Shown in pieces: positions 36,419 to 63,682 of a DNA stretch of 64,000 nucleotides. The DNA is from Actinomadura spongiicola. GTDB taxonomy: Bacteria > Actinomycetota > Actinomycetes > Streptosporangiales > Streptosporangiaceae. Both the position numbers and the translations under genes were made by a program. Position 1 is the first letter of the stretch; each line of letters begins with the position of its first letter. The stretch lies in the NCBI RefSeq assembly GCF_003432485.1, contig NZ_QVNQ01000004.1:62001-126000 (forward strand), read 5' to 3'. Below the pieces are notes generated by a model. That model did not search any database and had not been told where the DNA came from. It saw only the letters and a program-made list of their open reading frames with translations.

Positions 36419-38887
36419 GTGGTCATCGCCGACCTGCTGGGTGTCGCCCGGATGGCGGCCATCACCCTCGACGACGACGGCCGGATCGCCCACTGGGACG
36501 ACACCGCGACCGACCTGTTCGGCGTCGGACGGCGCGAGGCCGTGAGCCGCCCACTCGGTCTGCTGCTGCGGCTGCCGCCCGAGGTCCGCGGCGTCTTCGA
36601 GCCGGAGATCTTCGGACATGTGTGGTGCGGCGCCTGCACCGTTCCCCGCGTCGACAACGGCGAGCCCGTCGAGGTCGCCTGGTGGGTGTACCCGATCGAG
36701 GCGGGCGCCCCGTGCGGCGGCCGGAACGCGCCGGGCGACGGGAACCGGGACGTCCGCGTCCTCGCCCTGGCGGCCGACCTGCGCAGGCTTCGCACGGACG
36801 GTCCCGGCGTCACCATCGGCGACCAGCCCGTCGAAGCGCCCGACGGGTGCGCCCGGCGCGCGTCCGGGGCGCGGCTCCTGCGTGTCGAACCCGTGCTGGC
36901 CACACCGTCCGTGGAGCCCGCCTCCGCTCCCTACGCCGGGCCGTTCGCCGCCCGCCTGGCCGAACTGATGCCGGGCGTCGGGGCCGCCATGTCCGAATGG
37001 CTCGCCTCGCGGGTGCTCGGCCTCGGCTGCCCCGCCGTCTCGCTCGGGGTGACCGTCCCGCTGCCGATCGTCCCCTACACGGGACGTGCGACGCCCGTTC
37101 CGAACCCCGGCTCCGCCACGTCACGTCCGCAGCCGTCCCAAAGTTCACGCCCGGACGCGACGCGCCCGCCCCCCGACCCGAGTCCGTGCCCTGAGAAGGG
37201 ATTGGAGACGATGGCCGTGCGGGAACCCCTGACCTATCTCGGCGAGGCCGGACAGCAGATCGGCAGCTCGCTCGACCACCTGCAGACCGCCCGGACCCTG
37301 GCCGAGGTGCTCGTGCCGCGCCTCGCCGACTACGCCGCCGTCGAACTGCTCGAATGCGTCGCCACCGACTCGGCGCCGCCCGCCGCCCAGATCGACGAGA
37401 CCACGCAGATGCGCCGCGTCGCGGTCGTCCACAACGACGAGCCCGGACGCTGGGACGACGCCGTCCCCGCGGGCGAGCCCCTGCTGCTGCCGCCCGCCAA
37501 CCCGTTCGTCCAGGCCATGCGGACGGGACGTCCCGTCCACATCCCGCGCGTCGGGGCCAAACGGGCCGCCGAGCTGTCCGCCCTGCTGGGCGACCGCGAC
37601 CTGCGTCCGCTGTTCACCGGCCGGGCGCTGCTGGTCGTCCCGCTGATCGCGCGGGGACGGGTGCTCGGCACGTTGAAACTGCTCCGCAAACCCGACCGGC
37701 CCGCGTTCGGCGACCTCGACCTCGCCATGGTGGACGAGCTGGCCCGCCGCGCCGCGCTGTGCATCGACAACGGCCGCCTGTACCGGCGCGAGGTCCAGGT
37801 CGCCGAGGAACTCCAGCGCAGCATGCTGCCCGACGACCCGCCGGACGTCGCGGGCGCCCGCGTCCGATACCGCTACCGTCCCGCCGAGCAGGCCGTCAAC
37901 GTCGGCGGCGACTGGTTCGACGCCATCCCCCTGCCCGGCTGCCGGCTCGGCATCGTCGTCGGCGACGTGATGGGCCACGGCCTCACCTCCGCCGCGATCA
38001 TGGGCCAGCTGCGCACCGCCGTCCGGACCCTCGCCGCCGAGGACATGCGGCCCGCCCGGCTGCTGCGCCAGCTCGACGGCCTCGCCCGCCGCCTCGGCGA
38101 GGGCTACCTCGCCACCTGCCTGTACGCGGTGTACGACCCGGTCGAGCGGCGCTGCACGCTCGCCAACGCCGGGCACGTGCCGCCCGTCCTGGTGTCGGCG
38201 CTCGGCGACAGCCGCGTCCTGCCGCTCCCGTCCGGTGTGCCGATCGGTGTCGGCGGCGAGCCGTTCGAGGCGATGGAGATCGAGGTGGAGGACGGGGCAC
38301 AGCTCGTCCTGTGCACGGACGGCCTGCTGGAACGCCGCGACCGCGACATCGAACAGGGCCTCGCCGAACTGCGGGAACGCCTCGTCGACGCGACGACCGA
38401 CCTCGACCTGACCTGCGACTCCCTCCTCGACGGCCTCGCCGCGTCCACGCCCGCCGACGACATCGCCATCGTGGCGGTCGGCTTCGACGGGATCCCCAAG
38501 GACGACGTCGGCACCTGGTCCCTCGACCCGGAGCCGAGCACCGTTCCGTGGGTGCGCTCGCAGGTCGCCGGGAAGCTCGCCGAGTGGAACCTCGAAACGC
38601 TCACCGACACCGTCCAGCTGCTCGTCAGCGAACTCGTCACCAACGCGCTCGTCCACGGCGCGGGCGCCATCGATCTCCGCCTGATCAAGGGCCTGAACCT
38701 GCTCTGCGAGGTCTACGACGACGGCGCCGACCTGCCGAGACTCCGCCACGCCGACGCCACCGACGAGTCCGGCCGCGGGCTCCAGCTGGTCAGCCACCTG
38801 TCGTCCCGCTGGGGAACGCACCGCGCCGAACGGGGCAAGGTCGTCTGGTTCGAACACGACTTCCCCAGACCGCGCCCGCCGGGATAG
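36419..38887 (+). CDS. PAS-GAF-SpoIIE phosphatase with fused anti-sigma kinase domain
   Basis: An 822-aa one-protein partner switch. A PAS-like sensor lies at about residues 10-110, then a Pro-rich linker near 235-260. A GAF domain spans about 275-440, a SpoIIE/RsbU phosphatase about 465-670 (VNVGGDWFDAI, IVVGDVMGHG, DGLLERRD) and an RsbW-type histidine-kinase-like ATPase about 690-815 (LLVSELVTNALVHGAG, ESGRGLQLVSHLSSRWG). One polypeptide can thus bind or phosphorylate an antagonist and reverse it. GTG 36419 follows GGAGGAGGGAG by 5 nt. No sigma or STAS gene adjoins it, so its partners are elsewhere. Confidence 0.93.
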   Translation: MVIADLLGVARMAAITLDDDGRIAHWDDTATDLFGVGRREAVSRPLGLLLRLPPEVRGVFEPEIFGHVWCGACTVPRVDNGEPVEVAWWVYPIEAGAPCGGRNAPGDGNRDVRVLALAADLRRLRTDGPGVTIGDQPVEAPDGCARRASGARLLRVEPVLATPSVEPASAPYAGPFAARLAELMPGVGAAMSEWLASRVLGLGCPAVSLGVTVPLPIVPYTGRATPVPNPGSATSRPQPSQSSRPDATRPPPDPSPCPEKGLETMAVREPLTYLGEAGQQIGSSLDHLQTARTLAEVLVPRLADYAAVELLECVATDSAPPAAQIDETTQMRRVAVVHNDEPGRWDDAVPAGEPLLLPPANPFVQAMRTGRPVHIPRVGAKRAAELSALLGDRDLRPLFTGRALLVVPLIARGRVLGTLKLLRKPDRPAFGDLDLAMVDELARRAALCIDNGRLYRREVQVAEELQRSMLPDDPPDVAGARVRYRYRPAEQAVNVGGDWFDAIPLPGCRLGIVVGDVMGHGLTSAAIMGQLRTAVRTLAAEDMRPARLLRQLDGLARRLGEGYLATCLYAVYDPVERRCTLANAGHVPPVLVSALGDSRVLPLPSGVPIGVGGEPFEAMEIEVEDGAQLVLCTDGLLERRDRDIEQGLAELRERLVDATTDLDLTCDSLLDGLAASTPADDIAIVAVGFDGIPKDDVGTWSLDPEPSTVPWVRSQVAGKLAEWNLETLTDTVQLLVSELVTNALVHGAGAIDLRLIKGLNLLCEVYDDGADLPRLRHADATDESGRGLQLVSHLSSRWGTHRAERGKVVWFEHDFPRPRPPG

Positions 38888-38975
38888 CGACCGCATGTCG
38901 GCCATGCGAGCCAATTGTCCCATTCGCGCCAGTTAGTTTTCTCCGGGCCCGTCCGGTCTCATCGATATCGTTGAC

Positions 38976-39875
38976 ATGCGCCGAGGCCCCACGGGGGAAC
39001 AGTTGGGTGAGAAACTTACGCTGCCCGTTCCGGAAACGCTCTACGGCACCTACGCCGTGGCGCTTCCCGAGCCCATCACCGACCCCGCCCAGTTGGCCCG
39101 CGACGAGGTGGCCCGACGCACTGCCCCCCCGCTCCGCGACCGTGTCCTCGCCATGCTCGACAGCCCCATGCTCACCCTGGACCAGCGCCCGACGGCGGAC
39201 TTCCCACCGCTGCCCCGCGACCTCCTCGCCGCCTACGGCACCGCCACCTCCGACCTGGCGGCCATCGACACCGCCGCCCACCTCCTCGCCGTCCGCGCCG
39301 CCTACCGTCCGGGCCATCCCCCCGCGCACGAATGGTCGGCCCGCGCGGTCGCCGGCGCCGTCGCGGCCGCCCTGGCCACCCCGGTCATCGACGTGTTCAC
39401 CCCCCAGGTCCTCGTCTTAAGCCACCTCGAACGCTCCCTGCCCGGCCCGGACGGCACCGTCCGGCTCACCGATTGGATGCTCCTCCCGCACAGGTCCGGC
39501 CCACGCGGCTTCTTCTTCAGCACCAGGGGCCTCGCCCGATACGGCCTCCCCGAACTCCAGACCGAGGACGTCCCACCCGCCCTCGTGGTGGAGTGGGGCC
39601 GCCTCCTCAACGGCCTCGCGCTCCGCGTCCTCGAACTCTGGCTGGACGAACTGCGCGTCGACCAGCCGTCCGTCATCGACCTCCCCGAGATCGTGTCCGT
39701 GGGCCTCCGCGACATCGCCGCGGCCGAGGGTGCCGACGACCCGTCCCCCCGCGAGGTGGCCGTCCGACTCCGCCTCGACCGCTCCCCGGACCTCGCGCTC
39801 GTCGTCCTCCCGGCCGAGGACGACCTCGAATCCCTGTGCGCCACCCTCTTCGGCCCATCACAAAGCCACCGATGA
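38976..39875 (+). CDS. Unrecognised 299-aa protein
   Basis: A soluble protein with no membrane segment and no family I can name. It is Pro-, Leu- and Ala-rich with several regular helical stretches, for example LRDRVLAMLDSPMLTLDQRP and ALVVEWGRLLNGLALRVLELWLDELRV. A beta-rich part reads LTDWMLLPHRSGPRGFFFSTRGL. Codon use matches the neighbours, supporting a real gene. ATG 38976 lacks a clear ribosome site; TTG 39003, which follows GGGGGAA, is an alternative. It lies just upstream of the large repeat protein on the same strand and may be functionally linked to it. Confidence 0.7.
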   Translation: MRRGPTGEQLGEKLTLPVPETLYGTYAVALPEPITDPAQLARDEVARRTAPPLRDRVLAMLDSPMLTLDQRPTADFPPLPRDLLAAYGTATSDLAAIDTAAHLLAVRAAYRPGHPPAHEWSARAVAGAVAAALATPVIDVFTPQVLVLSHLERSLPGPDGTVRLTDWMLLPHRSGPRGFFFSTRGLARYGLPELQTEDVPPALVVEWGRLLNGLALRVLELWLDELRVDQPSVIDLPEIVSVGLRDIAAAEGADDPSPREVAVRLRLDRSPDLALVVLPAEDDLESLCATLFGPSQSHR

Positions 39876-39913
39876 CCTTGCCCATGATCTTGATCTGAGC
39901 GCAGGATCGACAC

Positions 39914-42496
39914 GTGAGATTCGGCCCGCGTGACCGTAGCCCCGACCCCGAGGACCCCGGCACCCCGGACCCCGACCCGACGCCACCTCCCGGCCCCTAC
40001 CCGGAGGACGTCCACGTGGCGGGCAGAAGCTCCACCCCCAGACCCGAACCGACCGTCACGGACTGGCAACCCGTCCAGCCCCCACCGCAACCGCCCACAC
40101 CGTCCGACCCGACCCCGCCCGACCACCCCCTGGCCTCCCAACCGTGGACCCCCCACACCCGCCCCCCATCGCCCGGTGGCTCACCGTCAAGTTGGGCGCC
40201 ACCCCGCCCACCCGAACCACCAACTGCCGAGACAGGGCGCCCGACATCGGGCGAACGCCAGACGCCGCCGCCGTTCGGGTCACCTGAGCCGTCGACCGGT
40301 GAGGCGTCGCAACCCGCGCCCCCCAACGTGCGCCCGTCCTCGGCCGGTGGCTCACCGTCGGGGTGGACGCCGCCCCGCCCGCCCGAGCCGCCCGTCGAAG
40401 GACCGCGGCCTCCAGAGTCGGGAGGACGACCGGCGCCTCCGCCGTTCGGGTCAGCTGAGTCGTCAAGCGGTGAGGCTTGGCGGCCTGTGTCCGCAGACCC
40501 GCGCCCGTCGTCGGCGGGTGGGTCACCGTCGGGTTGGGCGCCGCCCCGCCCGCCCGAGCCGCCCGTCGAAGGACCGCGGCCTCCAGAGTCGGGAGGACGA
40601 CCGGCGCCTCCGCCGTTCGGGTCAGCTGAGTCGTCAAGCGGTGAGGCTTGGCGGCCTGTGTCCGCAGACCCGCGCCCGTCGTCGGCGGGTGGGTCACCGT
40701 CGGGTTGGGCGCCGCCCCGCCCGCCCGAGCCGCCCGTCGAAGGACCGCGGCCTCCAGAGTCGGGAGGACGACCGGCGCCTCCGCCGTTCGGGTCAGCTGA
40801 GCCGTCGACCGGTGAGGCTTGGCGGCCCGCGTCCGCAGACCCGCGCCCGTCGTCGGCGGGTGAGTCACCGTCGGGTTGGGCGCCGCCCCGCCCGCCCGAA
40901 CCACCGACTGCCGAGGCAGGGCGTCCAGCGTCAGGTGAACGCCCGGCGGCTGCGCCGTTCGGGGTAACTGGGCCGTCAAGCGGTGAGGCTTCGGAGACGC
41001 GTCCGTCTGCGGGTGGTGGGTCAGCTTCGAGTTGGGTGCCGCATGGGACGGCCGAGTCGTCGACCGGTGGGGGAGGGCGGCGTCCAGTATCGGGCGAGCC
41101 TTCGGTGCCGGTGGGGGAGTCACCGGCGGCTCGGGCGCCTGCTGAAACGCCGACCGATGAGGGCACGGGGGCTTCGGCTTCGAATGTGCGGAACTCATCC
41201 GCCGGTGGGGCGTTGGGGTGGGCGCCGCGTGGCGCGACCGGATCGACGGGTGGCGAGGGAGCGCGGCCTTCAGCGTCGGGGGAGCAGCCGGCGGCTGCGT
41301 CGTTCGGGTCAGGTGAGCCGTCGAGCGGTGAGGCTTCGGAGTCCTTGGCTTCGGACGCGCGACCGTCGTCGGGCGGTGGGGCATCGTCGGGTTGGGTGCC
41401 GCATGGGGCGGCCGGGGCGTCGTCCGGTGGGGGAGGGCGGCGTTCATCATTGGGCGGGTCATCGGCGGCTGAGCCGTTGGCCGGTGGGGCTTCGGGGTCT
41501 TCAGGGTCGGGTGGACGGGCGTCGTCGGGGTGGAGGCCCCATGGGGCGGAGGAGGATCCGTTGTCCTGGGGGCTGCGCGACGCGGGGAGCGCGTCGCGGG
41601 AGGCGGGTGCCGGGGCGTCGGAGGCGCCGCCGTCATGGGGGCGGACCGGGGGACGTCACGAGCGGGTCGACGAGCCGTTCCTGCCCGGGAAGGGGTTGGC
41701 GGTCGCGCCGCCCTCGGTGACGGAGCCTGATCCGCTGCCGCGTCCGCGGGCGATCGTGGATCCGGGGCGGCGCCGGGCACAGGCGGACGCGTTCGTCGCC
41801 GAGTTCGTCGGCGGTGCGACCTGGCGGGCGACGCTCGCGGTGCTGGACGGAGCGTTCCCGGGGCTCGGCCTTGCGGCGACGCTGTCACGCCGGACCGATG
41901 AACTGTGGCGGATGGTGGACGCCGCCGACCGGAGGGCCGCGGTCAGGCTCGGTGTCCCGCTGTGGCTGGACGACGCGGGCATGGTGTTCGACCTCAGCGC
42001 CCACCTCGGTGTGCGCGCCGTCCGGGCGCCGCTGGCGGGGCGGACGGCGCCGCCGCGGGCGTCCAGGCCGTACGCGGGGGCGTTCGTCATCGACACGCTC
42101 GATCCGCTGCGGTACCACCGGGCCGTGGGCGGGCCGCGGGCGCCGCGTGCCCTGGCGGGTGACCATGTGCTGCCGGTGCCGGACGACGTCGAGGACGACG
42201 ACACCGGTGTCGTGATCGTCGCGAACCTGCGGTCGGCGGGGGTGCGGGTGCTGGACTCGGCGGCGCTGTGGCGGTACGCGAGCCAGATGATCACGGACAC
42301 GTTGCATGAGGCGGCGCGTCCGGAGACACGGGTTCGGGCGCGCAGGGCGCTGCGGGCGTTGCGGCATGTCGTCGTCGTCGACCCGGACCTCGGGCTCGGG
42401 CTGTGCCTCCAGGTCGACGTGGCGCGTGTGCCGCGGTGCCTGCTGGCGTTCGGCGTGGACCGGACGGAGGGCCTGTCGCGCTTCGTCCGGCCTTGA
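39914..42496 (+). CDS. Large Pro/Ser/Gly-rich repeat protein with novel C-terminal domain
   Basis: An 860-aa protein with two parts. Residues 1-630 are low-complexity, Pro-rich then Ser/Gly-rich, and include three near-identical 57-aa repeats (about residues 152-322) with a recurring PSSAGGSPSGWAPPRPPEPP core. Residues 640-860 form a compact, ordinary-looking domain I do not recognise, beginning RAQADAFVAEFVGGATWRATLAVLDGAFPGLG and ending VARVPRCLLAFGVDRTEGLSRFV. No signal peptide or membrane segment is seen, so the low-complexity part is probably a flexible cytoplasmic spacer. GTG 39914 has AGGA 7 nt upstream. Its TGA abuts the stop of the convergent gene. Confidence 0.75.
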   Translation: MRFGPRDRSPDPEDPGTPDPDPTPPPGPYPEDVHVAGRSSTPRPEPTVTDWQPVQPPPQPPTPSDPTPPDHPLASQPWTPHTRPPSPGGSPSSWAPPRPPEPPTAETGRPTSGERQTPPPFGSPEPSTGEASQPAPPNVRPSSAGGSPSGWTPPRPPEPPVEGPRPPESGGRPAPPPFGSAESSSGEAWRPVSADPRPSSAGGSPSGWAPPRPPEPPVEGPRPPESGGRPAPPPFGSAESSSGEAWRPVSADPRPSSAGGSPSGWAPPRPPEPPVEGPRPPESGGRPAPPPFGSAEPSTGEAWRPASADPRPSSAGESPSGWAPPRPPEPPTAEAGRPASGERPAAAPFGVTGPSSGEASETRPSAGGGSASSWVPHGTAESSTGGGGRRPVSGEPSVPVGESPAARAPAETPTDEGTGASASNVRNSSAGGALGWAPRGATGSTGGEGARPSASGEQPAAASFGSGEPSSGEASESLASDARPSSGGGASSGWVPHGAAGASSGGGGRRSSLGGSSAAEPLAGGASGSSGSGGRASSGWRPHGAEEDPLSWGLRDAGSASREAGAGASEAPPSWGRTGGRHERVDEPFLPGKGLAVAPPSVTEPDPLPRPRAIVDPGRRRAQADAFVAEFVGGATWRATLAVLDGAFPGLGLAATLSRRTDELWRMVDAADRRAAVRLGVPLWLDDAGMVFDLSAHLGVRAVRAPLAGRTAPPRASRPYAGAFVIDTLDPLRYHRAVGGPRAPRALAGDHVLPVPDDVEDDDTGVVIVANLRSAGVRVLDSAALWRYASQMITDTLHEAARPETRVRARRALRALRHVVVVDPDLGLGLCLQVDVARVPRCLLAFGVDRTEGLSRFVRP
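40368..40880 (+). repeat. Three tandem 171-bp in-frame repeats
   Basis: Copies at 40368-40538 and 40539-40709 appear identical, and the copy at 40710-40880 has a few substitutions. 171 bp is 57 codons, so the frame is kept. Flanking sequence contains diverged versions, which suggests older duplications followed by a recent expansion. Confidence 0.9.
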
Positions 42497-43396
42497 TCAC
42501 TCGTCGGGGCGCAGCCAGGACAGGTCGCTCTGCCGGTCCGTGGGAAGGGCGCGGATGAGGTCCACGAGTTGCCGCGGTGGCGCGGGCGGCGCGTCACCGT
42601 CCGGGACGACGCCGCAGACGAGCGCGTCCGCCGTTCCAGCGGCGGTGAACGGGCCGAACTGGACGACGCCGCCGCCGCGCAACGCCGCCAGCTCGGCGAG
42701 CAGCGCGTTGAGGGCGGTCGGATCGTCCGGCGAGTCCATGCCGCGGACGTGGGCGAGGAGGTCTTCGGCGAGCGCCTCGGGGCGGCGACCCGAGAGGTGG
42801 TACACCGTTCCGCGGTAGGTGCCGGTGGCCTGCGCGGCGCGCTGGTCGCGGACCCGGACCCGGAGCCCGTACTCGGCGGCGCAGCGCTCGTAGGCGCCGG
42901 CGAGCAGCGTCTCCGCCTCGCCCTCCTCGCTGAGCAGGACGCCGGTGACGACGCCCTCCTCGCGGTCCAGGCGGTCGAGCATCTCCCGGTGGAGTTCCAC
43001 GACGTCCCGCTCCACCGCGTCCAGCGAGCGGGCCAGCGCGCGCTGCGCCTCGCGGTCGAGGTCGAGACCCGCGACTTCGCCGGACAGGTCGCCGAACTGC
43101 TTCTCCAGCCGCTCCACCCGGCCGGTGATGGAGTCGAGCCGGTCGAGAAGATCGGTGGGCGGGTCCTCGGGGTGCTGCGGCGGGATCGGGATGCCGGCGG
43201 GTTCGGTCGCCTCGTCCACCACCGCCTTCAGCGTGTCGTGGCGGCGCGCCAGCTCCGACACCTGGCCACGCAGCTCACGCAGTTCCGCCTGGGCGCGGGG
43301 CAGCCGCTTGTCGGACGCCAGGTACAGTTCGCGTCCGGCGATCGCGAGGCAGAGCAGCACCAGGATCACGGTGGTCATGGTCACGACGATAACCAT
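42497..43396 (-). CDS. Membrane-anchored coiled-coil protein, unknown
   Basis: A 299-aa protein with an N-terminal hydrophobic segment (VTMTTVILVLLCLAIAG) and then long helical, probably coiled-coil stretches: LPRAQAELRELRGQVSELARRHDTLKAVVDE and RVERLEKQFGDLSGEVAGLDLDREAQRALARSLDAVERDVVELHREM. The C-terminal part, from VVTGVLLSEEGEAETL, is globular and unrecognised. ATG 43396 is chosen because the upstream extension to ATG 43480 has low third-position GC, unlike the rest; ATG 43378 is also possible. Topology suggests the coiled coil extends into the cytoplasm. Its stop abuts the stop of the repeat protein. Confidence 0.72.
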   Translation of the reverse strand: MVIVVTMTTVILVLLCLAIAGRELYLASDKRLPRAQAELRELRGQVSELARRHDTLKAVVDEATEPAGIPIPPQHPEDPPTDLLDRLDSITGRVERLEKQFGDLSGEVAGLDLDREAQRALARSLDAVERDVVELHREMLDRLDREEGVVTGVLLSEEGEAETLLAGAYERCAAEYGLRVRVRDQRAAQATGTYRGTVYHLSGRRPEALAEDLLAHVRGMDSPDDPTALNALLAELAALRGGGVVQFGPFTAAGTADALVCGVVPDGDAPPAPPRQLVDLIRALPTDRQSDLSWLRPDE

Positions 43397-43495
43397 CCGC
43401 GGCCCGATTAACCGAGAGCGCGGCGGATCTCGTCCGAATGGCCCGGCAATATCCGGTGGCGTGTCGCCACCGGAAACCATCGGGCGCGTTGCCGG

Positions 43496-45112
43496 TCAGC
43501 CGAAAAGGCCGCCCAGAAGGCCGCCGAGGATCTCCGCGGCGCCACCCGCGATCTCCCCGGCCACATCGCCCGCGACCCCTCCGGCGACGTCGGCGGCGAC
43601 GTTCCCGGCGATCTGGCCGGCGGCCTGGCCCGCGTATCCGGCGATCGCGTTGCCGAACGCGTCCACGGGATGGCCCGCGACGTAACCCGCCGCGTTCTGC
43701 GCGTATCCGGCCGCGTCGCCCATCGCGCCGATCGCCATGCCGCCCGCGATCCCGGCCGCGGCGGCACCACCGACCACACCGGCGGCGGCGCCGTACCCGC
43801 GGTGCCCGTGGTGGCCGGGCGGACCGTGGTGGTGGACGTGCGCGGGCGGCTGCCCCGGGTGCCCGTGCGCCGCGGGCGGGTAGGGCATGGGGCCCGCCGG
43901 GAGTGGCGCGGCGTGCGGCGGCGGGTAGGCGCCTCCCTGCCCGGGCATCGGGGGCGGCGGTGGGCCGCCGGGCGGCGCGTGGCCGGGCGGGTGGTGAGGG
44001 GGAGGTGGGGCGTGACCGGGCGGCGGGGGAAGCGGCGGGCCGCCATGACCCGGCATGGGGGCGTGGCCGGGGAGGCCGCCCGGAGGCGGCGGCGGAAACG
44101 CCTGCCCTGGGTGGTGACCCGGTGGACGGGCCGGTCCGGGCGGCGGCGCGTGGCCTGGGGAATGCATGGCCGCGGGCGCGTGGCCCGGAGCGGGCGCGGG
44201 CGGCGGGACGTGCGCGCCTCCCGGGTGACCGTAGTCTCCGGGCCCGCCGTAGGACGCGGCGGGCCGTGCCGCCGGTGGTGGCGGCGGGAACGGCGACCCG
44301 CCACCCGGAGGCGGCAGCGGGCTCCCATGGGCGGCGCCGCCGGCCGAGCCGGAACGGGACGAGCGCGGCAGCGCGACCGCCGCCTTAAGCCACTGGTTGA
44401 TCTTGGCGTTCCAGTCGGTCTCGGCGGCCTCCGCGTGCGACACCTGGAAGACGCCGAACGACTCGTCCGTCGGGGTCTTGCGGTCCTCGGCGCGGAGCAC
44501 GAAGGCCATGCTGCGCGGGCTGGCGACGAAGCTCAGCCCGACCTTCTCGATCCGCCCCGCGTACGCGGACGGCGGGTTGAGATGGATCTCCTGGTGGAAC
44601 GGAAGCTGCTGGGAGACGCCCCTCAGCTTGGACGACTCGAACGTGACGTTGGTGATCTGGAAGCCGAGCCGGGCGATCGCGGCGAGCACCCACTGCTGCG
44701 ACTCCAGCGGCTCCACGGAGATCGGGTCGATGTCGCCCGGGTCGGGCTGCCCCTTGGCGTCGACCTCCGTGCACATGCCGATGGTGAAGCCGGGCAGTTC
44801 GTGGCCGAGCACGGTCGTGAACGGCAGCTCGTACGGCAGCGGAATGGAGAACGACAGGTCGCGCTGCTGCGCGGCGTCCAAGCGGAACCCCCGAGTAAGG
44901 GCGCCCCGGTACACCTCGGGTCCGGCCGTCTCACCGCCGTAGCCGTTCTGCATGCGCGGCATGAGCGCGAGCGTCACATGGCGGATCTCCACCGGTCCGG
45001 CACCGCCGCGCAGGTGCACCTTGCCCGCCACGACGCCGCCGGGTTTGCAGTTCGGCTCCGACAGGATCGTGTCGACGGACGGCCCGCCGCCTGCCATCTG
45101 TCCGTAGGACAC
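43496..45112 (-). CDS. Spo0M-family protein with Pro/Gly-rich tail
   Basis: A 538-aa protein whose first 280 residues match the Spo0M/SpoOM sporulation-control family (arrestin-like fold): SVDTILSEPNCKPGGVVAGKVHLRGG, then LSFSIPLPYELPFTT and ESQQWVLAAIARLGFQI. From about 290 a long Pro/Gly/His-rich linker follows. The end is a Gly/Ala-rich segment with repeated GxxxG spacing (VAGHPVDAFGNAIAGYAG, then VAADVAGGVAGDVAG). This could be a glycine zipper that contacts membranes or oligomerises. GTG 45112 follows GGGAGAAGGGAA by 7 nt. The exact role of Spo0M is unsettled even in Bacillus. Confidence 0.88.
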   Translation of the reverse strand: MSYGQMAGGGPSVDTILSEPNCKPGGVVAGKVHLRGGAGPVEIRHVTLALMPRMQNGYGGETAGPEVYRGALTRGFRLDAAQQRDLSFSIPLPYELPFTTVLGHELPGFTIGMCTEVDAKGQPDPGDIDPISVEPLESQQWVLAAIARLGFQITNVTFESSKLRGVSQQLPFHQEIHLNPPSAYAGRIEKVGLSFVASPRSMAFVLRAEDRKTPTDESFGVFQVSHAEAAETDWNAKINQWLKAAVALPRSSRSGSAGGAAHGSPLPPPGGGSPFPPPPPAARPAASYGGPGDYGHPGGAHVPPPAPAPGHAPAAMHSPGHAPPPGPARPPGHHPGQAFPPPPPGGLPGHAPMPGHGGPPLPPPPGHAPPPPHHPPGHAPPGGPPPPPMPGQGGAYPPPHAAPLPAGPMPYPPAAHGHPGQPPAHVHHHGPPGHHGHRGYGAAAGVVGGAAAAGIAGGMAIGAMGDAAGYAQNAAGYVAGHPVDAFGNAIAGYAGQAAGQIAGNVAADVAGGVAGDVAGEIAGGAAEILGGLLGGLFG

Positions 45113-45198
45113 CGGCCGTTCCCTTCTCCCGACGGCGAGGACGTTCCTCGCACCAGTCGTGCGCACGGCTTTCCGCGACACCCGGTCACGGATTCCGG

Positions 45199-45212
45199 CC
45201 CATACATATGGG
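45199..45212. promoter_or_regulatory. Candidate operator upstream of the Spo0M gene
   Basis: CCCATACATATGGG is a perfect 6-2-6 palindrome about 87 nt upstream of the GTG start. The AT-rich centre could also supply a -10 element. Confidence 0.4.
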
Positions 45213-45336
45213 ACTCACTCCACCATGCCACTGGTTCACCCCGCGAGCGGATCCCGCACCCATTTCACCCGAGGACATCCCAACTCGCCACCCGCCCACC
45301 CAGCGCAACGCCCCCCGCCTACGCCCGTCTTCCGTC

Positions 45337-45370
45337 CCCGCCCCGGCGACGCTCAAGTCGCCGGGGCGGG
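45337..45370. terminator. Terminator hairpin after the M16 peptidase operon
   Basis: A perfect 14-bp stem (CCCGCCCCGGCGAC / GTCGCCGGGGCGGG) with a 6-nt loop lies 130 nt past the M16 operon stop on the minus strand and upstream of the Spo0M promoter region. It has no T tract, and the distance is long for an intrinsic terminator. Confidence 0.65.
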
Positions 45371-45499
45371 TGTACCGCACGACGTTTCGGCTGCTCACCG
45401 CGTCTCGAAGTGTGCAGCTGAGCTGCGTGGGGTGCCTAATGGTTTTCGCGGTTGTGCGACGGTGTGGGTGGTCGCAGCGTTCTTAGGGTGCGGGGGAAG

Positions 45500-62293: not shown

Positions 62294-63682
62294 ATGGCGA
62301 AGCGGTTCGACCTACGGGGACGGCTCGCCGACATCGCCGCGGCTTGGGGTGCCGCGGTCGTCGTCACACTGGCGCTGACGGTGACGCCCGCCCATGCGGC
62401 GGCCACCGCACAGGGCAATCCTGCACAGGGCTACGCAGGACAGGGCAATGTAGGACAGGGCAATGCCGGACCGGCGGCCCCCGCCGGTGTGGCGCTCGCG
62501 CGTCCGCCGACGGGGCCGTTCGACCCGGCGAAGCTGCGCGCCACCTTGGACGCCGCGCACGACGCGGGCATGTACGGGACATGGTCGGCCGCTCAGGACG
62601 GGCGCACCGCGTGGAACGGAGCGTCCGGTGTCGCCGACGTCCAGACACGGCGACCCGTCAAGCCGGACATGCGACAGCGTGTCGGCAGCATCACCAAGAC
62701 GTTCGTCGCGACGGCGATCCTCCAACAGGTCGAGAAGGGCCGCCTCGAACTCGACGCACCGGTCGGCCGGTACCTGCCCGACGTCTTTCCCGGACGGCAC
62801 GGCAAGCAGGTCACCGTGCGGATGCTCCTCAACCACACCAGCGGCCTCGGCGACTACCTGCTCCTGGCGTTCCCCTCGTTGTCGGACCTCTCGCCCGAGA
62901 GCCTGGACGAGAACCGGTTCCGGCGCCTCACCCCGGAGCAGCTCATCACCTGGGGAATGCAGGCACCGCGCACCGGTGAACCGGGCGAGCGCTACTCCTA
63001 CTCCAACACCAACTACGTCATCGCTGGACGGCTCCTGGAGAAGGTGACCGGCACGACCGCGGAGCGGTACATCGACCGGAACGTCATCGGCAAGGCGGGG
63101 CTGAAGCACACCTACTTCCCGTCTCGCGCACGCGTCTCCGGCCCGCACTCGCGGTTGTACGAGTCGCTCTACCAGCACGTGGAACCGCCCCGCGACTACA
63201 GCACGTACGACGTGAGCTGGGCGTGGACGGCGGGCGCGCTGGTCTCCACGATGGACGACCTCAACCGCTTCTACCGCAGGCTCCTCACCGGCGAACTCAT
63301 CGGCGAGGACGCGCTGGCGCAGATGCGACGCACCGTCCCCGTCAAGGACGCGGACGGCAACGTGCTGAAGAACTACGGTCTCGGGCTCTACTCGACCGAA
63401 CTGCCGTGCGGGACGTTCTGGGGCCACGACGGCACCGTCTTCGGGTCCGGAACTCAGTCGCTGTCGTCCGCGGGCGGGGCGCGGCAGATCTCCCTGACCA
63501 CCAACCTCGCGAGGTATTCGAAGCTCGACTCCAACGGCGTGCCCGTCCCGCATCCGATCGACAGCGCGCTGGGCGCGCACGTGGTGGAGGCGCTCTGCGG
63601 CAGCAGGCCCGTCACCGAGTCCCCGGGGCGGGAGCGTCCGGTCCGGGTGCTGCCGTTGCAGGTGCTGCGCCTTCTCGGTTGA
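62294..63682 (+). CDS. Secreted serine hydrolase, beta-lactamase/D-Ala-D-Ala carboxypeptidase type
   Basis: A 462-aa secreted penicillin-binding-type serine hydrolase of the class C/EstB-like family. The signal peptide (residues 1 to about 36) ends near TPAHA. Active-site motifs are S132-I-T-K135 (SxxK), YSYSNTNY and the WGHDGTV region. Between signal and catalytic domain is a short repetitive Gln/Gly/Asn segment (QGN and QGY units). The substrate could be a D-Ala-D-Ala peptide or an ester. ATG 62294 has GGAGAAGAGGACC upstream. It stands alone, with its stop 8 nt from a convergent gene. Confidence 0.92.
   Translation: MAKRFDLRGRLADIAAAWGAAVVVTLALTVTPAHAAATAQGNPAQGYAGQGNVGQGNAGPAAPAGVALARPPTGPFDPAKLRATLDAAHDAGMYGTWSAAQDGRTAWNGASGVADVQTRRPVKPDMRQRVGSITKTFVATAILQQVEKGRLELDAPVGRYLPDVFPGRHGKQVTVRMLLNHTSGLGDYLLLAFPSLSDLSPESLDENRFRRLTPEQLITWGMQAPRTGEPGERYSYSNTNYVIAGRLLEKVTGTTAERYIDRNVIGKAGLKHTYFPSRARVSGPHSRLYESLYQHVEPPRDYSTYDVSWAWTAGALVSTMDDLNRFYRRLLTGELIGEDALAQMRRTVPVKDADGNVLKNYGLGLYSTELPCGTFWGHDGTVFGSGTQSLSSAGGARQISLTTNLARYSKLDSNGVPVPHPIDSALGAHVVEALCGSRPVTESPGRERPVRVLPLQVLRLLG

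Follow-up and report, generated by a model that had tools for sequence, protein, structure and literature searches.

A convergent pair of undescribed protein families in Actinomadura, one carrying a fast-evolving tandem-repeat arm

Introduction

PopZ of Caulobacter is a polar condensate scaffold in which the balance between a disordered region and an assembly domain tunes condensate behavior (PMC9512792). In-frame amino-acid tandem repeats that form disordered regions have been described in Borg elements (PMC9879509), and the Spo0M protein of B. subtilis, an interactor of FtsZ and ZapA, is found at the poles and septum (PMC5325327). Here we describe a locus of Actinomadura spongiicola, located in a window of 64,000 nucleotides (the whole stretch of DNA that was analyzed; contig NZ_QVNQ01000004.1, positions 62,001 to 126,000), that has a point of contact with each of these systems and on which we found no literature. 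It consists of a gene encoding a protein with a repetitive arm and a conserved C-terminal domain (C-domain), and of a convergent gene encoding a putative partner protein.

The repeat protein, for which a Pfam search gave no match of any kind, is like PopZ in having a probably disordered region and a separate candidate assembly domain, and the resemblance is one of design only. It differs from PopZ in that the folded domain is predicted to be alpha/beta, the arm is tandemly repetitive with Trp motifs, and there is a partner that is predicted to be membrane anchored. As in the Borg elements, its tandem repeats are recent, independently formed, in frame, and situated in a likely disordered region; unlike the Borg repeats, they belong to a chromosomal gene of cultivated actinobacteria, they are flanked by recurring motifs, and they are accompanied by a conserved domain and a conserved neighbor. 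Spo0M (PF07070) is encoded by a conserved neighbor of the partner gene, a functional link being suggested by gene position only, and neither protein of the pair was seen to match Spo0M in sequence. The 299-aa protein encoded immediately upstream of the repeat gene and in the same direction (38976..39875, +) resembles DUF4026_C (PF22789) in 11 of 31 members, with E values down to 4.9e-4. These matches fall below the curated cut-off where bit scores are given (21.9 versus 27), and the window member has no match.

Results

The repeat protein gene (39914..42496, +) encodes 860 amino acids from a GTG start codon with AGGA seven bases 5' of the GTG, and orthologs are present in 35 of the 36 genus genomes. 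The first ~615 residues (39914..41758, +) form an arm rich in Pro, Gly, Ser, and Ala, containing 16 Trp, 1 Lys, and no Cys, which is probably disordered, as judged from composition. Toward its N terminus the arm bears the short motif PYPEDVHVAG (39995..40024, +), for which the genus consensus is P[HY]P[GE]D[VI][HR]VAG, and near its other end it bears the motif GRHERVDEPFLPGKGL (41651..41698, +), a short way N-terminal to the C-domain. By-eye comparison finds the latter in similar form in many orthologs and in a related form in another genus; a GRH...DEPFLPxKGLSAEPP-like motif stands N-terminal to the C-domain in many full-length orthologs. A 610-aa open reading frame on the minus strand over the repeat (40056-41888) was discounted, since the plus frame runs on into the conserved domain. 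The GC content at the three codon positions of the window gene is 0.74/0.80/0.73 in the arm versus 0.81/0.54/0.91 in the C-domain. With a third-position value of 0.73 against 0.91, the arm (39914-41758) has nearly lost the usual high-GC codon signature.

A sequence-only reading of this DNA had proposed a recent expansion of a 171-bp unit, with two copies identical and a third nearly so, lying in frame within a low-complexity region. TRF places a 171-bp array of 4.3 copies at 40263..40991 (+), with 90% matches and a score of 1102, and lag analysis and unit comparison agree. The in-frame units are at 40337-40507, 40508-40678, and 40679-40849 (+), with a diverged fourth at 40850-41020. Self-comparison at a lag of 171 reveals one exact 263-base run, 40368-40630 versus 40539-40801, so that two unit-length stretches are identical (spanned region 40368..40801, +); an exact in-frame match of this length cannot be chance. 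When compared in the protein frame, units 1 and 2 show 5 nt differences, as do units 2 and 3, and the fourth unit is ~48-53 nt divergent. Both the identity of the copies and their in-frame position, within a P/G/S/A-rich region of ~612 residues, are therefore borne out. The Trp residues within the window array are spaced 38 and 19 residues apart, and the corresponding position in one other species (locus L111) is occupied by a 57-bp (19-aa) array, a hint that the array contains a 19-residue subunit.

Full-length orthologs, which were recognized by the N-terminal motif pattern, number 39 and are ~382-1221 aa long; the presence of the motif in 39/39 is partly circular, the same pattern having defined the set. 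A further 11 ortholog rows were left out, being truncated by contig ends or without the exact pattern. Across the 39, the arm ranges from 136 to 980 aa with a median of 385, and its composition is 24.5% Pro and 2.3% Trp with no Cys. The frames open around the C-domain in the genus genomes extend from 391 to 2247 aa, a stop-to-stop measure that overstates gene length in GC-rich DNA. TRF arrays with a score of at least 80 were detected in 19 of the 39, and the top period is divisible by 3 in every one of them (19/19), while only 2 of 39 partner genes contain a TRF array. The nearest relative, A. pelletieri, the C-domain of which is 94% identical, has at the same place another, separately homogenized array of 348 bp (2 x 174) in 3.0 copies. 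The arm has been re-expanded independently across orthologs, and the proposed recent expansion is upheld at the level of species, the comparison having been made with one genome per species. The window protein contains 14 W-x-P motifs where 3.8 are expected from shuffles; this excess is clear in many orthologs and absent in several.

The C-terminal part had been singled out from the letters as compact, conserved-looking, and unfamiliar, a description that the analysis confirms. It comprises a conserved domain of 245 aa (41759..42493, +), predicted to be alpha/beta by AF2 (mean pLDDT 80.6, pTM 0.81, with two loops at low confidence), and the mean column identity is 56-57% across 30-46 species. 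In comparison with A. pelletieri, dN is 0.029 and dS 0.191 (dN/dS ~0.15), values that indicate purifying selection. Pfam and NCBIfam searches with the window protein gave no match, C-domain included, and a PDB sequence search with the C-domain likewise gave none. A profile match to a known family had been named beforehand as a possible refutation, and no credible match was obtained for any of the 46 C-domain members: the search returned only five isolated single-member hits, the best with an E value of 0.01 (Pfam). Structure comparison gave a best E value of 0.19 with Foldseek and a best Z score of 2.8 with VIA-align, that is, no fold recognizable by either tool, the absence of a match being no proof of a new fold. 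RecA-like, acetyl-CoA carboxylase, and nuclease readings of the domain were rejected at Z scores under 3. By these comparisons the C-domain is an undescribed protein family, confined to part of one GTDB family in the samples examined.

The partner gene (42497..43378, -; 293 aa, the open reading frame being extendable to 43480) converges on the repeat gene, and the two stop codons abut without a gap in the sequence TGATCA (42494..42499). Convergence is found in all 30 mapped loci; the gap between the genes is 0 bp in 24 of the 50 listed loci and 1-4 kb in a few. The partner protein opens MTTVILVLLCLAIAGRELYLASDKR...; a hydrophobic helix, MTTVILVLLCLAIAG, lies at its N terminus, and it also has coiled coils and an alpha/beta C-terminal domain. 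Because positive charges follow the helix, the C terminus would be cytoplasmic, the topology being read by inspection of the sequence. No usable match emerged from Pfam/NCBIfam searches of the partner, and coiled-coil hits to it were discounted as a composition effect. Its end domain is modeled mostly at pLDDT 85-95, and VIA-align gives a Z score of 5.0 to an ACT domain protein and many S6-like rows at 4.2-4.6, values below the tool's reliable level that weakly suggest a ferredoxin-like/ACT-like fold. A Roadblock/LC7 assignment, which had come from strand order alone, was dropped when structure comparisons gave ferredoxin/ACT-like chains instead. The partner is, by the same comparisons, a second undescribed protein family.

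The pair is duplicated, a diverged version of it being present at another place in the genome. A second C-domain relative, without the long arm and 31-38% identical (a weaker match), is present in 34 of the 36 genus genomes, and in ten genus genomes that were inspected it lies beside a partner paralog. Profile-profile comparison of the duplicated pair gave probabilities of 97.4% for the C-domains and 99.2% for the partners. Either or both of the pairs occur in other genera of the family, where the two genes likewise converge; in one genus they are separated by 4.3 kb. In several other genera the convergent open frames of the second pair overlap by ~43 bp, the same length recurring repeatedly (locus L090, 3181-3223; likewise L091, L092, L093, L095, and L096). 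DUF1963 and SUFU-family genes (locus L052, 12034-12861 and 14725-15900) are found a few kilobases from the second pair.

A third partner-type paralog (MTVILVLLCLAIAGRELYLAF...; L082:1474-2457, -, and G000:C1:551250-552086) is without a C-domain neighbor and, by inspection, adjoins a NarL-like response regulator. In the Actinomadura loci that were read, no hidden C-domain was found converging on this paralog, and the gene that it does converge with is enoyl-CoA hydratase-like. One genus (g69) encodes three partner-type proteins and has no detectable C-domain. From this genus and from the third paralog it follows that the partner family is not always dependent on the C-domain. In another genus, the last part of a 354-aa protein (L097:1976-3037, -) is weakly like the paralogous C-domain (E 2e-7), and its N-terminal part is different; the match covers no more than the final portion of the domain, and the lead went nowhere.

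The C-domain is present in 35 of the 36 genus genomes, and the 49 named C-domain loci all belong to Actinomadura or Spirillospora. Among 200 genomes of the GTDB family, 26 encode the C-domain, 30 the partner family, and 25 both, a co-occurrence that is supportive and not statistical proof, these being related genomes and not independent samples. Outside the GTDB family, no relatives of the C-domain were found in a sample of 246 class genomes, none of the paralogous partner in a sample of 246 phylum genomes, and none of the 299-aa protein in a sample of 149 phylum genomes. Relatives of the partner were not found in viral contigs, nor were relatives of the C-domain found in plasmids.

Several genes recur around the pair. 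The 299-aa gene lies upstream in the same direction in 28 of 30 loci, a GAF-SpoIIE-HATPase regulator (36419..38887, + in the window) is nearby in 22 of 30, and Spo0M (43496..45181, -, upstream of the partner gene) adjoins the partner in 27 of 30, these counts being lowered by loci cut by contig ends. A search for sigma-70-type promoters and T-run terminators in 38700-45400 found none beyond chance expectation.

Discussion

The locus exhibits repeat turnover, in-frame constraint, a conserved domain, and conserved convergent and duplicated pairing. The convergent partner gene and the duplicated pair, on which the sequence-only reading had not remarked, tell the most. At the least, two undescribed protein families occur together, and one of them has a fast-evolving repeat arm. 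Our best explanation, to which we assign a probability of about 0.4, is that the two proteins would form a membrane-associated scaffold of variable arm length at the inner face of the cell membrane. The partner would be anchored in the membrane by its N-terminal helix, its coiled coil and end domain being cytoplasmic, and the C-domain of the repeat protein would dock on it. The Trp-bearing W-x-P repeats of the flexible arm would then act as repeated weak binding sites, in the manner of stickers and spacers, and repeat expansion would allow a quick change of reach and valency while the ends of the arm stayed fixed. This reading draws by analogy on the general behavior of disordered arms beside assembly domains, as in PopZ, and the topology and disorder calls on which it depends were made by sequence inspection. 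The 30/30 convergence, the abutting stop codons, the paralogous pair, the C-domain dN/dS, the co-occurrence (25/26 of C-domain-positive and 25/30 of partner-positive genomes), the W-x-P excess, and the in-frame periods would all be consistent with a scaffold. Against it, convergent genes form no operon, and duplication of a single segment would by itself have given paired paralogs. Many repeats are evidently not essential, because several orthologs show no W-x-P excess and the arm can be as short as 136 aa. A role at sites of growth or division is a guess that goes beyond the rest of the model, made because Spo0M is encoded next to the partner at almost every locus and its B. subtilis counterpart is located at the poles and septum.

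It is possible, if rather doubtful, that the arm is instead no more than a passive linker, encoded by GC-rich, repeat-prone DNA that would grow and shrink by slippage or recombination, remaining in frame only for the sake of the downstream C-domain; the C-domain and partner would cooperate while the repeats did nothing specific. The sevenfold range of arm length, the individual array of each species, the lack of a scored array in 20 of the 39 full-length orthologs, and the weak codon-position GC signature of the arm are all compatible with this. The W-x-P excess over shuffles, the 2.3% Trp content, and the recurrence of the end motifs in distant species suggest, to the contrary, that selection has acted on arm content. 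We regard as unlikely a regulatory module of SpoIIE-type partner switching or developmental signaling, in which the repeat protein would be an adaptor and its functional partners would be the phosphatase encoded upstream and the 299-aa protein. The co-directional upstream genes and the adjoining Spo0M would fit a module of this kind; however, about a quarter of loci have no SpoIIE gene close by (some of these loci stop at a contig end), the paralogous pair lacks such neighbors, and in the Pfam/NCBIfam and profile searches the C-domain is unlike any known regulator.

Bacterial surface proteins often vary in their tandem repeats, and the genus includes agents of mycetoma, so the arm might be thought to belong to a secreted or surface-displayed protein that varies in length for adhesion or antigenic change. 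This is highly improbable: inspection of the 860 aa turned up neither a signal peptide or hydrophobic helix at the N terminus nor a lipobox or cell-wall anchor, and the gene is also carried by species named for soil, litoral, lichen, and termite sources (judging from names only). Least credible of all is that the repeat count is an assembly artefact. The 263-bp exact repeat is longer than ordinary short reads, but the contig runs on for 781 kb, and independently sequenced species have differing arrays at the same place, even if each individual count could be wrong. That orthologs assembled independently also contain arrays speaks against a pure artefact, the copy number in the window being that of the assembly.

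An extended form of the scaffold reading, which we think improbable as a whole, would be a hitherto undescribed membrane scaffold that is confined to Actinomadura and its near relatives and exists twice, in parallel, in each cell. In it a membrane-anchored coiled-coil protein would recruit a new-fold domain with a rapidly evolving Trp-sticker arm, and condensate or tether properties would be retuned in each species by repeat expansion. If our best explanation is right, the locus encodes a lineage-specific protein pair without described relatives, found in almost all members of one genus of mycelial actinobacteria. The orthologs would then provide a natural series in which a single conserved domain carries arms of ~40 different lengths (136-980 aa), so that the effect of arm length and Trp-motif number on scaffold behavior could be tested. 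At minimum, two undescribed protein families are defined, together with a checkable prediction of partnership.

Repetitive sequence in the window is also found outside the pair. The Spo0M protein encoded at 43496-45181 (-; PF07070, E 3.2e-50) has a long Pro/His/Gly-rich tail of ~200 residues and an Ala/Gly-rich repetitive C terminus, and its gene contains a 24-bp TRF array at 43545-43600; it is a second low-complexity protein beside the pair. Farther away, at 62410-62471, there is a 15-bp tandem repeat of 4.1 copies, ACAGGGCAATGCAGG.
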